This document shows, piece by piece, positions 31,858-37,457 of a stretch of 64,000 nucleotides of DNA. Source of the DNA: Teretinema zuelzerae (GTDB lineage: Bacteria; Spirochaetota; Spirochaetia; Treponematales; Treponemataceae). Position numbers and translations under genes: made by a program. The stretch covers positions 248,001 through 312,000 of the forward strand of contig NZ_JAINWA010000003.1 in NCBI RefSeq assembly GCF_021021555.1, given 5' to 3'. Numbering within the stretch: the first letter of the stretch is position 1; every line of letters starts with the position of its first letter. The notes under the pieces are model-generated. The model did no database searches. It was not told where the DNA came from and saw only the letters and a program-made list of their open reading frames with translations.

Positions 31858-34614
31858 TTACTCCGCTTTCTCCTTGGAAGGTACGGACTTGTCGAGCTTT
31901 TCGCTGTCCTTGAGCTTGCGGGCGACTTCGACGTATTCGATGACTTCAAGCTGATCGCCGACTTTGATGTCGGAATAGTTGTCGAGACCGATACCGCATT
32001 CGAAACCGGAAGCGACTTCCTTGACGTCGTCCTTGAAACGGCGAAGCGAGGATAGTTTGCCCGAATGAACAACGATGCCCTCGCGGATGACGTTGACGGA
32101 AGAACTTCTCTTGATAAGTCCTTGAAGCACGTAGGAACCGGCGATCGCTCCGATTTTCGGAACTTTGATGACGTCGCGGACTTCGACAGTACCGATGACC
32201 TCTTCCTTGATATCCGGCTTGAGCATGCCTTCCATAGCCTGTTCGATTTCTTCGACGGCTTTGTAAATGATATTGTACTTCCTGATATCGACTTTTTCCT
32301 GCTCGGCAAGCAGCTTCGCCTGGGGAGTAGGACGAACGTTGAAACCGATGATTATCGCGTTTGAGTCGGCGGCGGCGAGCATTACGTCGGAATCGTTGAT
32401 CGCTCCGGCAGATGCGTGAATTACGTTCAAACGGACGTCGCGGGTTGAAAGCTTTTCGAGAGACTGTTTGAGAGCCTCTACCGATCCCTGAACGTCTCCC
32501 TTGATGATCACCTTCAATTCGAGAATTTCTCCCTGGTTGATGGTGTCGTACAGGTTGTCCAGCGTAACCTTCTTGATGTTCCGCGAATTCTCGAAACGCT
32601 TGAGTTCCTGGCGCTTCGAGGATATTTGGCGCGCAATGCGTTCTGTTTCCGTCACCTGGAAGGGATCGCCGGCGTTCGGCATTCCTTCAAGTCCGAGTAT
32701 TTCGACAGGCATGCTCGGAGTGGCTTCTTCAAGCTTTTCTCCGCGATCGTTGAAAATTGCGCGCACGCGTCCTGAGAACACACCGGCTACGTAGGAATCT
32801 CCGGTGCGGAGGGTTCCGCGTTCGACGATGATCGTGGCTACGATTCCGCGGCCGTGGTCGATTCGGGATTCGATAACCTTTCCTTCGGCCCTGCATTCGT
32901 AATTCGCGGTGAGTTCGAGAACTTCCGCCTGCAGAAGAATCGCATCGAGAAGTGTATCGAGTCCGACTTTCTGAAGAGCGCTTATCGGAACGAAAATGGT
33001 GTCTCCGCCCCACGCTTCGGGAATAAGGCCGCGCTCGGAAAGCTGAGTCATCACCTTGTCGGGATTCGCCTCCGGCTTATCAATCTTGTTGACGGCAACG
33101 ATTATAGGAACCTTCGCGTCCTTCGCATGATTGATCGCTTCGATGGTCTGGGGCATCACGCCGTCGTCTGCCGCTACTACGAGTACGACGATATCGGTGA
33201 TTTCCGCTCCGCGCGCTCTCATCATGGTGAAAGCTTCGTGTCCCGGCGTATCGAGGAAGGTAACCTTGCCCTTTCCGGTTTCGACCGTATACGCACCGAT
33301 GTGCTGCGTAATTCCGCCGAATTCGCCTGCCGCGACGTTCGCGCTGCGGATAGCGTCCAGAGTTTTCGTTTTACCATGGTCTACGTGACCCATGATGGTA
33401 ACCACGGGAGGCCGATGCAATAATTCGACGCTTCCGTCGGATTCGCTCTCAATAACAGTTTCGTCGTACAGACTGACGATATGAACCGTGCAATCGTATT
33501 CGGATGCGAGTATTGTCGCTGTGTCGGCGTCTATGGACTGGTTCATGGTAACCATCATGCCCATACCCATGAGCTTTCCGATCAGCTCGGAAGCTTTCAG
33601 ATTCATCTTCCTCGCTAATTCGGAAACCGAGATGGTTTCCATGATTTCAATTTCCTTTGGAATAGCGTTAGCTTTATCCAAAGCTTTCTTTTTCTGAAGG
33701 ATCAATTTCTGTTCGAAATCGTCTTCTTTATTTCTGCGTGAATATTGAGTGGCTTTCTTGCCTTTAAATCCCTTTTTGGTCGCACCGGCGCCGCCGCGCG
33801 AATCAAGAGGAAGAGGAGCAGGTCCTGAACCGCCGGGACGGCCTTGGCCGCCCTGGTATCCGCCGCCGGGACGGCCTTGACCGCCCTGGTATCCGCCGGG
33901 CCTGGGCGCTCCGCCCTGGTATCCGCCGGGCCTGGGCGCTCCGCCCTGATATCCGCCGGGCCTGGGCGCCCCGCCCTGGTATCCGCCGGGCCTGGGCGCT
34001 CCGCCCTGTCCGCCCTGGTATCCGCCGGATCTGGGCGCTCCGCCCTGTCCGCCCTGGTATCCGCCGGATCTGGGCGCTCCGCCCTGTCCGCCCTGATATC
34101 CGCCGGATCTGGGCGCTCCGCCCTGTCCGTTATAACCGAACGAATCCCGGGCGCCTTCGCGCGCCTGAGCTCCGGAAAAATTATCCCGGCCAGGACCGCT
34201 GGGGCTTCCGCCCCGGGGAGGATATGAACCGCCGGGTCGTTGCGCCGGCTTGGTTCTATCGGCAAGATTTCCTACCTTGACGTTAGGCCTGGGTGGACTT
34301 AGTTCAATGGAAGTAGCCTTCCGTTTTTCCTGAACGGGTGCCGACTGGACGGCATCCCCCGAGGAGACAGAAGAAGCTTGAGGGGTTTCGGGGGCCGGAT
34401 GATGGACCGGAACGACATGAACTTTTTTTCGTTCGACGTGTTCTTCCTGAACCGGAGCGGGTTGAGAAGATGCGGCGGCCGCAGCCGGTTTCTTTTTAAC
34501 GACTACTACTTTCTTCTTTTCAGTCTGATCAGAAGAATCAGCAGGCGAGTCAGATTTGCGTTGTTTGTTCAATATTACCTTCGGTTTCTGGGTATTCTCG
34601 AGATCTTCAGCCAT
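31858..34614 (-). CDS. infB: Translation initiation factor IF-2
   Basis: 918 residues. IF-2 is the GTPase that brings initiator tRNA to the 30S subunit and joins the subunits. The variable N-terminal third begins with lysine-rich and proline-rich segments, then a glycine/proline/arginine repeat tract at about residues 163-260. The IF-2N domain ([20 protein letters not shown]) comes next. The G domain has GHVDHGKT (G1), [15 protein letters not shown] (G3) and NKIDKP (G4). Domains II, III and IV complete the C-terminus. It is cotranscribed after nusA with an eight-base gap. Confidence 0.97.
33836..34125 (-). repeat. In-frame tandem repeat inside infB
   Basis: Three copies of a 39-base unit (encoding [13 protein letters not shown]), about four copies of a 30-base unit ([10 protein letters not shown]) and two shorter [11 protein letters not shown] units follow one another without breaking the reading frame. 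They are nearly identical at DNA level, which suggests recent duplication. Confidence 0.9.
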
Positions 34615-34622
34615 ATGGTTTC

Positions 34623-36098
34623 CTATTCTTCGTCCTCATATTCAAAACTGAGACCAATACCACAATTAGGACATGTTGTCATATCGATCGTTATTCGTCC
34701 GCCGCATTCGGGACATTCGTATTCTTCTACAGCCGGAGATTCCTCAACAGGAGTTTCGCTTTCGGCGACAGAATCCGATGTCTCGATAACTTCAGGTTCT
34801 TCTTCGACAATATCAAAGGAATCCCTCATCAATTTACCGAGAAGAGTTATGTGTTCTTCCGTAATTCCGGAAATAGCTGAGAGTTGTTCTTCTCCGAGCG
34901 CTAACAAATCTCCTATTTTAAGTATATTGCCCTGAGACAGCAAAGCAGCAATCTCATCTGTAATTCCGGGCAAGTCGGCGATAGAAGATTCTTCGTCGAC
35001 AAACACTTCATCGGAGAACAGATCATTCGCGGCCTTGCGTGAATCCGCGGTAATATCCATTTCTGCGAACTGTTCATCGGTTTTAACATCGATGCTCCAG
35101 TCGGCCAGGCGGTTTGCAAGACGGACATTCAATCCCTGCTTGCCGATCGCCAGAGAAAACTGCGGTTCGGATACAACGGCCAAGGCTGAGCGTTTCGCTT
35201 CATCCATTATAACGACTTCATTCACTTCAGCCGGCGACAATGCGTTCCTGATGAAAACGCGCGGGTCCTCGTCGTATTTTAATACATCTATCTTCTCGCC
35301 CTCAAGCTCCCTGATGACAGCTTGAATTCGGACGCCCTTCAAACCGACGCATGCGCCGACAGGATCGACGTCGTCGCGGTTCGAAAACACCGCCACCTTA
35401 GTCCTGTAGCCGGGTTCGCGGACGATTTTATGGATCTCCACCGTTTTGTCGTATATTTCAGGAACTTCAAGCTCTAATATACGGCGCACGAAGTCGGGAT
35501 CGGTTCTTGAAAGAACAATCTGAAGTCCCGAGGGAGCTTTTTTCACCTCGGTAATCAAAGCCTTTATTCTGTCGTTAGGCCGGTAGGTTTCACGAGGAGA
35601 CTGGAATTTCTTCGGGAGTATGCCTTCAACTTTTCCGAGATCAACGTAAATATTGCCGTTTCTTTCGCGCTGATAGTAGCCGATGATAATCTCGCCGACC
35701 TTATCCTTATATTCCGAATGAAGGCTGTCCTTCTGAATATCGCGTATCGATTGATGAGCAGTCTGCTTGGCCGATTGCACGGAAATCCGGTCGAATTCGC
35801 GGGGGTCGACTTCGATCAACAGCTCGTCTCCGAGCTCGCACTCTGGATCGAGAGCCAGGGCTTCTTCAAGCTCGATTTCAATGACCGGATTATATACGCC
35901 ATCCACGATGGTCTTGCGGGAATATATCGATACGTCGGTTCTAGTCTCATTAAAGGTGACTACAGCATTATCGTTGGTTCCATACTTACGTTTATAAGCA
36001 GCCTTGAGGGTATCCTCAATCATTCTGAGAACCAAATCTTCGTCGATTCCTTTTTCTTGAACGAGTTGGCGGATCGCTTCTGCCATTTCTGCGGACAT
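34623..36098 (-). CDS. nusA: Transcription termination/antitermination factor NusA, with C-terminal zinc ribbon
   Basis: 491 residues. NusA binds RNA polymerase and nascent RNA and modulates pausing and termination. The order is an N-terminal polymerase-binding domain (1-130), S1 (about 135-200; GNIYVDLGKVEGILPKKFQSP), KH1 and KH2 (VGACVGLKGVRIQAVIREL; FSLAIGKQGLNVRLANRL), and a helix-hairpin-helix-like repeat (about 375-435; SIADLPGITDEIAALL). After an acidic linker, two CxxC pairs (C462/C465 and C476/C479) form a likely zinc ribbon, which standard NusA lacks. It lies 25 bases after rimP. Confidence 0.96.
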   Translation of the reverse strand: MSAEMAEAIRQLVQEKGIDEDLVLRMIEDTLKAAYKRKYGTNDNAVVTFNETRTDVSIYSRKTIVDGVYNPVIEIELEEALALDPECELGDELLIEVDPREFDRISVQSAKQTAHQSIRDIQKDSLHSEYKDKVGEIIIGYYQRERNGNIYVDLGKVEGILPKKFQSPRETYRPNDRIKALITEVKKAPSGLQIVLSRTDPDFVRRILELEVPEIYDKTVEIHKIVREPGYRTKVAVFSNRDDVDPVGACVGLKGVRIQAVIRELEGEKIDVLKYDEDPRVFIRNALSPAEVNEVVIMDEAKRSALAVVSEPQFSLAIGKQGLNVRLANRLADWSIDVKTDEQFAEMDITADSRKAANDLFSDEVFVDEESSIADLPGITDEIAALLSQGNILKIGDLLALGEEQLSAISGITEEHITLLGKLMRDSFDIVEEEPEVIETSDSVAESETPVEESPAVEEYECPECGGRITIDMTTCPNCGIGLSFEYEDEE

Positions 36099-36123: not shown

Positions 36124-36576
36124 TTACGCGGGGCTGACCAATTTTGCTTTTGCTATTTTATCGAAGGGAATTTCGATATCGCCTGAAGGCGTGGAAAGGC
36201 GCAACGCCTTCGAATCACAGGACGATATTGTCCCGTGCATCCAATCAGAGATATCGGTATTCCATACCTTCACAAGTTTTCCGGTGAATACCGTAAACTC
36301 AAATCCATTTTTGATGATTCTATCCAAACCGGGGGACATTACCTCAACGTACATATCCTGGGAGGACAGCAGAGCTTCCAGACGGGGAAGAAGCGCGCGA
36401 TGCACGCGGGTGCAATCAGCGATTCCCACGCCCTCAGGTCCGGCGATTACCATTCGAATATGCCATGTAGACTGCCTTTTAAAGGCGGTCAATTCAACTA
36501 TGTTGAATCCGAAACCCTTGACCAGGGGTTCGCAATCCATAAAATACGGAACTTTCTCCGGCGAGATGTATTCCAC
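36124..36576 (-). CDS. rimP: Ribosome maturation factor RimP
   Basis: 150 residues from a GTG start with AGGAG ten bases upstream. RimP helps assemble the 30S subunit. Family features seen are GFNIVELTAFKRQSTWHIRMVI, GIADCTRVHRALLPRLEAL, VEVMSPGLDRII and a C-terminal SH3-like domain ending in IPFDKIAKAKLV. First gene of the rimP-nusA-infB operon; its leader contains a strong promoter and, inside the transcript, a terminator hairpin. Confidence 0.93.
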   Translation of the reverse strand: MEYISPEKVPYFMDCEPLVKGFGFNIVELTAFKRQSTWHIRMVIAGPEGVGIADCTRVHRALLPRLEALLSSQDMYVEVMSPGLDRIIKNGFEFTVFTGKLVKVWNTDISDWMHGTISSCDSKALRLSTPSGDIEIPFDKIAKAKLVSPA

Positions 36577-36621
36577 TGCTTTTCAGCTCCTGAAAGGGGC
36601 GCCTGCGCGGCCCGCTTGATA

Positions 36622-36650
36622 TAAAAAAAGGAGCCGTTCGAACGACTCCC
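36622..36650 (-). terminator. Intrinsic terminator in the rimP leader (possible attenuator)
   Basis: On the minus strand a stem (GGAGTCGT pairing with ACGGCTCC, 36630-36649, one U-G pair) with a four-base loop is followed by seven T. It lies downstream of a strong promoter and 46 bases upstream of the rimP GTG, so it sits inside the operon leader. It also ends comF read-through. Confidence 0.85.
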
Positions 36651-36683
36651 GATTTTTTTAAAGGATAAAAATGTTCACTACTT

Positions 36684-36712
36684 ATAGTACCATAAGGAAA
36701 AAACACTGTCAA
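36684..36712 (-). promoter_or_regulatory. Strong promoter for the rimP-nusA-infB operon
   Basis: On the minus strand a perfect TTGACA (36707-36712) and TACTAT (36684-36689) are separated by exactly 17 bases. The predicted start is near 36677, about 100 bases before rimP and about 27 bases before the terminator stem. The -35 lies six bases after the comF stop. Confidence 0.8.
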
Positions 36713-36717
36713 CCGAG

Positions 36718-37457
36718 TCAATCATGGAAGAGCGTCAGGCCGTAAACGACACGGCTTCCCGCATTTTTTAACGCTTCCGCGCAGGATTCGAGCGTCGCGC
36801 CGGTGGTCATGAGATCATCGATAATAATCGCCGTTTCCGGCGCTCTTACGTTGAGACAGCTGATATTTCCCTTCATATTATGAAGACGCGCTTCACGGCC
36901 AAGGCTTTTTTGCTGTTCGCGAGCGGTTCGCTGAAGGATTCTTTCAATTTTTACATTGTGTTTGTTTTCTAAGATACGAGACAGCTCTTCGATTTGATCC
37001 CAGCCCTTAGAGCGTATTTTACCCGGCCGGGGGGGACTGGTACTATGGTTGCATGCAGTTTGATGTCGGGGATGGTTGAGAGGTTCTTATCGATTACAGA
37101 AGCGAATATTGCCGACAAGCCCCTGCATCCGTCGATTTTCCAGGATGTTAAAAGTCGCTGTCCGCCTCCGTCGTACGGAAAAAGAGGAATAATGCGATCC
37201 ATCGCAGACATCCAGGGCGTGGAAGCGCAGGAGCAGCAAACGCCTATTTCAGAAACAAGCGGCCTGCCGCACTTTGAGCACATATCGGTTTGGTTGCCGA
37301 AGAATGATTTTGATGCTGCGCTCTCCATCATGGATTGTCTGCACGAAGCGCATAATGGTTCGCCGTAATGGCACAAAACCGTTTTGCACGACAGACAAGG
37401 GACGGGCGAAAGAAAATAGCCCAAAGCATTTCTTATAATGGACGATATAGTTTGCAC
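36718..37457 (-). pseudogene. comF: ComF-family phosphoribosyltransferase, interrupted by a one-base deletion
   Basis: From GTG 37457 the first piece has an N-terminal cysteine-rich zinc region (CLSCKTVLC, CASC, CSKCGRP, CCSC), PYDGGGQRLLTSWKI and IVPVPP, then leaves frame after PPGRVKYALRAG. One extra C in the C7 run (37029-37035) gives PPRPGKIRSKGWDQIEELSRIL and continues to the PRPP loop IIIDDLMTTGATLES and a stop at 36718, a 246-residue protein of normal ComF length. ComF acts in DNA uptake in naturally transformable bacteria; in many others its role is unclear. It is preceded by mutS 61 bases away. Confidence 0.88.

Follow-up and report, generated by a model that had tools for sequence, protein, structure and literature searches.

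The window analysed here, a stretch of 64,000 nucleotides from the spirochaete Teretinema zuelzerae, carries the rimP-nusA-infB operon on its minus strand, downstream of comF. The gap between comF and rimP is occupied by a short leader that consists of a promoter, a hairpin and a U tract. The parts of this leader and the genes that follow it are listed below in the order of transcription, with counts from the spirochaete leaders compared in the next section.

36707 to 36712, minus strand: -35 element TTGACA, preceded 5 nt upstream by the comF stop codon; TTGACA without a mismatch in 93 of 117 leaders
36684 to 36689, minus strand: extended -10 element TACTAT, with TG ahead of it, after a 17-nt spacer; spacer of 17 in 108 of 117 leaders
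36672 to 36676, minus strand: predicted 5' end of the transcript and conserved box GAACA, found in 21 of 34 loci of the same family
36663 to 36667, minus strand: second leader box, here TATCC and in other clades GATTC; ATCC in 15 of 99 leaders, 5.3 expected
36629 to 36650, minus strand: terminator hairpin GGGAGUCGU-UCGA-ACGGCUCCU, 9 pairs, -12.6 kcal/mol, with a covarying stem
36623 to 36629, minus strand: terminator U7 tract, its first U paired in the stem; 109 of 117 leaders have five or more T in a row
36577 to 36622, minus strand: 46-nt stretch from terminator to rimP with Shine-Dalgarno AGGAG; 9 to 275 nt long in relatives
36124 to 36576, minus strand: rimP (PF02576), GTG start at 36576
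34623 to 36098, minus strand: nusA (TIGR01953), with a C-terminal zinc ribbon
31858 to 34614, minus strand: infB, an open reading frame and its translation, the name being read from the sequence

The gene names of the first-pass annotation hold, those of comF, rimP and nusA by family match and that of infB from its translation alone. For comF the identity stands but the intact gene does not: a frameshift at a G7 tract (37026-37032) splits it into two pieces, matched by positions 1-87 and 95-188 of TIGR00201, the second of which ends at 36718. Several congeners have an open comF frame of 243-282 codons, and the split is either a sequencing error or the mark of a decayed gene. The zinc ribbon of NusA spans residues 458-482 (window 34653-34727, minus strand; PF13248), and a CxxC-n-CxxC pattern lies near the end of NusA in 119 of 119 distinct full-length relatives examined, a count biased by the fact that the named loci were found partly via a pattern from the zinc-ribbon region. 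Within infB, tandem repeats of 30-39 bp (33830-34129, minus strand) encode Gly-rich repeats in the N-terminal part of IF2.

The promoter, previously annotated as TTGACA-17-TACTAT between comF and rimP, was confirmed on the minus strand (36712-36684) and scores 10 of 12 in a promoter scan of 16 kb. Given that the scan returned 19 promoter-like sites where shuffles gave 12.8, the promoter match alone is little proof. Terminator-like sites in the scanned 16 kb were likewise not commoner than chance (23 found, 21.5 expected). With site scans this close to chance level, the case for the leader is carried by its conservation across relatives. The strong terminator that had been described shortly after the start and 46 bases before rimP is also present; its hairpin begins about 26 nt past a predicted start at about 36676, the earlier estimate being about 27.

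Hairpin and tail together occur as a single copy in the 3.62-Mb genome, even with up to 3 mismatches allowed. A covariance model of the element scores 51.8 bits at the rimP leader and 34.0 bits at the next site; its 12 genome hits include the rimP leader and its opposite strand, and six of the weaker ones (L197-L201, L203) have the appearance of ordinary hairpins located at the ends of genes or close to them, as opposed to operon leaders, so that a regulon is not indicated. Of the six other hairpins compared in the same genome, five are stronger than the leader hairpin. In 10 of 10 congeners the U tract is broken by a C after 5 or 6 T, whereas that of the window is an uninterrupted U7. On the plus strand the same hairpin with its flanking A tract (36616-36659) forms a weak terminator of 24.2 bits, and the genes on either side of it both lie on the minus strand.

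Conservation of the leader across Spirochaetota

Regions upstream of rimP were collected from 136 loci, of which 127 had a rimP hit (9 did not) and 115 were distinct after removal of 12 duplicate upstream sequences. From 40 loci more distant within the phylum, 31 were added (9 were omitted, nusA not being re-found), which brought the set to 146 regions; the exclusion of 3 that were too short left 143 spanning Spirochaetota. A terminator-like hairpin is present in 138 of these 143 regions, and in 127 of the 138 it lies downstream of a promoter scoring 9/12 or better, figures favoured by the choice of the leader hairpin with the promoter score in view, drawn from related and hence not independent loci, and affected in some counted loci (L018, L129) by a wrong automatic choice of hairpin. 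A comparison with relatives had been proposed in the first-pass annotation, and the hairpin proved to be conserved. Among the nine omitted distant loci, inspected by eye, promoter and hairpin are seen in L172, L175, L184, L185 and L195, and the leader is not resolved or absent in L190, L192, L193 and L194.

The geometry of the leader is conserved as well. In 117 leaders the distance from start to stem is 15-41 nt, with a median of 25 and an interquartile range of 23-28, while that from stem end to start codon runs from 9 to 275 nt. The narrow first range and the wide second one indicate that the start-to-hairpin distance is constrained and the remainder is not. Such an arrangement is rare elsewhere: a promoter that scores 9/12 or more is placed at 15-41 nt from 74 of 85 leader hairpins of matching stability, as against 11 of the 1213 control hairpins, the controls being other hairpins with a U tract from 80 named loci, on both strands and some inside genes. 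This gap is too wide for selection bias, kinship or in-gene controls to explain. One clade (L074, L076, L080, L089, L093, L101) has a doubled second box and a start-to-stem distance raised to 38-40 nt.

The stem itself covaries. In an alignment of 36 diverse leaders, taken from 60 listed ones for their clean hairpins and so leaning towards pairing, 95.9% of cells pair and both sides have changed in 5 of 9 pairs; when the partner is displaced by 1, 2 or 3 columns, pairing falls to 36 to 74%. Of 117 stems, 78 have GUCG as their core, and UUCRA is frequent as the loop sequence. Sequence is also kept near the 5' end, where GAACA lies within 16 nt of the -10 element in 21 of the 34 same-family loci, with 0.35 expected from shuffling. 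Across 99 non-redundant leaders, GACA occurs in 34 (10.0 expected), GAACA in 24 (3.9), GATTC in 23 (2.3) and CAGTC in 18 (1.0), and a motif search reached a log-likelihood ratio of 121.5 as compared to 13.6-19.4 in shuffled leaders. The motif starts cluster at about -2 to +1, which places the predicted start at the 5' box; part of the signal can reflect a start-site preference. GAACA may be akin to the NusA boxC of the Mycobacterium rRNA leader.

Exceptions exist. No such leader lies upstream of rimP in L050, a locus of the same family in a 1.1-Mb genome (G030), and in L085 and L051 it has apparently been lost or has decayed. No terminator was found upstream of rimP in L035, L174, L176, L189 and L191, in some of them perhaps because the rimP start was misplaced. 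The promoters of L048 and L162 score 8/12. In L158, L160 and L161, from genomes of 1.0-1.5 Mb in one family, promoter and hairpin are kept and the stem is different.

Alternative pairings were assessed by comparing duplex energies in the 117 leaders with 100 dinucleotide-preserving shuffles per leader. No antiterminator was apparent in these leaders, pairing with the 5' arm giving a mean z of -0.46 and pairing with the 3' arm -0.27; over antiterminator and Shine-Dalgarno sequestration candidates together, mean z lay between -0.14 and -0.46, which is not convincing. Two further candidate signals were set aside. The rRNA leaders of the genome carry GGTCTTTGAAAA, and a similar ATCCTTTAAAAA is present in the leader; compared by eye with the boxA consensus, the binding signal of NusB-S10, the versions in relatives lose the core. 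A promoter-proximal pause that depends on sigma is not favoured, the stretch from +3 to the stem holding a -10-like element in 57 of 99 leaders, fewer than the 66.8 of shuffled sequences.

Relation to known leaders of NusA operons

Leaders of this kind have been described in other bacteria. Among the attenuators predicted in 2010 by Naville and Gautheret the rimP-leader was the most frequent; their survey suggests NusA as its effector and cites work in which NusA represses the E. coli operon (PMC2965389). In Streptococcus agalactiae, an RNA-seq study describes for gbs0413-gbs0418 a short and a long transcript from one start, with termination 31 nt past that start at an intrinsic terminator before rimP-nusA-infB, and proposes NusA feedback (PMC4448216). 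In Bacillus subtilis, NusA is autoregulated through NusA-stimulated termination in its leader (Mondal 2016, as summarised in a review, PMC12288461), and NusA-dependent terminators are marked by weak hairpins and interrupted U tracts, according to the same review.

The spirochaete leader shares with the rimP-leader (RF01770), as that family is outlined, an intrinsic terminator 5' of rimP-nusA-infB, the lack of a visible antiterminator in its general form and a conserved stem sequence. A hairpin with a U tract does lie upstream of rimP in a rimP-nusA-infB operon. The stem motifs differ, however: the published rimP-leader has GGGc...gCCC, the window has GGGAGUCG...CGGCUCC, and the commonest core in spirochaetes is GUCG. 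The window's own stem, GGGAGUCG...CGGCUCCU, thus departs from GGGc...gCCC, and some relatives have GGGCCG...CGACCC or GGGUCG...CGACCC. RF01770 has no match at C3:284623-284674, its best score elsewhere being 26.4 bits against a gathering threshold of 47, and no Rfam family matches the leader, chance hits falling far below gathering.

With S. agalactiae the likeness is one of compact layout, and consists in a start, then an intrinsic terminator, then rimP-nusA-infB. S. agalactiae is a Firmicute in which termination is reported at 31 nt, whereas a stem at about +26 would place termination near +50 here. The B. subtilis rimP leader is given as 180 nt in the survey (PMC2965389), compared with about 100 nt in the window, and NusA dependence, demonstrated for the B. 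subtilis leader in the work reviewed, is a presumed property here. In sequence terms, the order of predicted start, terminator and operon agrees with the B. subtilis and S. agalactiae type, and no competing antiterminator is seen.

The first-pass annotation had regarded the arrangement as simpler than, and different from, the known leaders, a view that does not survive comparison with the same compact layout in S. agalactiae (PMC4448216) and a rimP-leader known since 2010 (PMC2965389), as these sources describe them. The kind is already known; what is new is its phylum-wide reach, the fixed spacing, a stem core of GUCG where the published motif is GGGc...gCCC, and the box at the 5' end. The strings Spirochaet, Treponema and Borrelia have 0 occurrences in the main text of the survey (PMC2965389), and no report of a rimP-leader in spirochaetes was found in the open-licence literature searched. 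Neither rimP nor infB is named in the main text of a paper that maps 5' and 3' ends in Borrelia burgdorferi (PMC10319736). Spirochaetes, in which there has been little work on termination, would thereby join the bacteria that keep their NusA operon behind a built-in terminator. As a compact natural system of fixed geometry, their leader lends itself to tests of how NusA is recruited soon after promoter escape, and its conserved 5' box is a concrete target for binding tests.

A proposed feedback valve and its rivals

We consider it likely that the leader is a promoter-proximal attenuator of rimP-nusA-infB, in which NusA-stimulated termination would provide negative feedback. RNA polymerase would initiate directly downstream of comF, make about 26 nt, and then transcribe a moderately stable hairpin followed by a U tract, the outcome being either read-through into rimP or the release of a short RNA some 50 nt long. 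The fraction that reads through would depend on how well termination is stimulated, with NusA as the most likely agent, and NusA at a high level would then lower its own operon; the hairpin would also halt transcripts leaving comF. The weak hairpin, the U-tract breaks in congeners and the published precedents are the grounds on which we infer the same NusA valve here; its start site and its termination in vivo are likewise predictions. The window's own U tract, being uninterrupted, may terminate well without NusA. As the layout is common to most relatives examined, it is probably a feedback valve of the kind described in other bacteria.

A true attenuator could instead answer to a signal other than NusA, such as NusG, Rho or RimP, or act as a constant damper on a strong promoter. 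The stem and the 5' box are kept in sequence beyond what pairing demands, which suggests a specific reader, and RimP and IF2 are encoded in the same operon; we nevertheless hold this unlikely, considering that the sources cited above report feedback by NusA on this operon for B. subtilis and E. coli, and that it has been proposed for S. agalactiae.

Beyond NusA feedback as such, the leader might be a sequence-specific NusA sensor, in which the spirochaete NusA, with its C-terminal zinc ribbon, recognises two elements in the first 50 nt: the 5' box, GAACA/GACA followed by ATCC/GATTC, and the GUCG-UUC hairpin. The fixed spacing of about 25 nt between start and stem would set how long NusA has to join the polymerase. 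This proposal is speculative, and we rate it as rather doubtful. If true, termination would measure free NusA by its rate of arrival and not by RNA refolding.

It is highly improbable that the hairpin serves to control translation of rimP or to guard the 5' end of the mRNA: its 3' arm GGCUCCU could form a duplex with AGGAGCU, which lies at the ribosome site of rimP, yet across the 117 leaders that pairing is barely above shuffles (mean z -0.45), 109 of the 117 retain five or more consecutive T, and the distance from hairpin to start codon is unconstrained.

Nor does the leader behave as a mere comF terminator with an incidental promoter, a reading to which we give very little credence even though the hairpin lies 3' of comF on the same strand and the comF stop codon is 5 nt before the -35 element, given that relatives keep the promoter alongside the hairpin at fixed spacing and that such promoters are rare at control hairpins (11 of 1213). 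Among the 105 loci having at least 440 nt upstream, the leader is present in 32 of 33 with a comF signature upstream, and promoter and hairpin are kept in 62 of 72 without that signature within 450 nt. A leader that is conserved, and kept without comF, is tied to rimP and not to comF.
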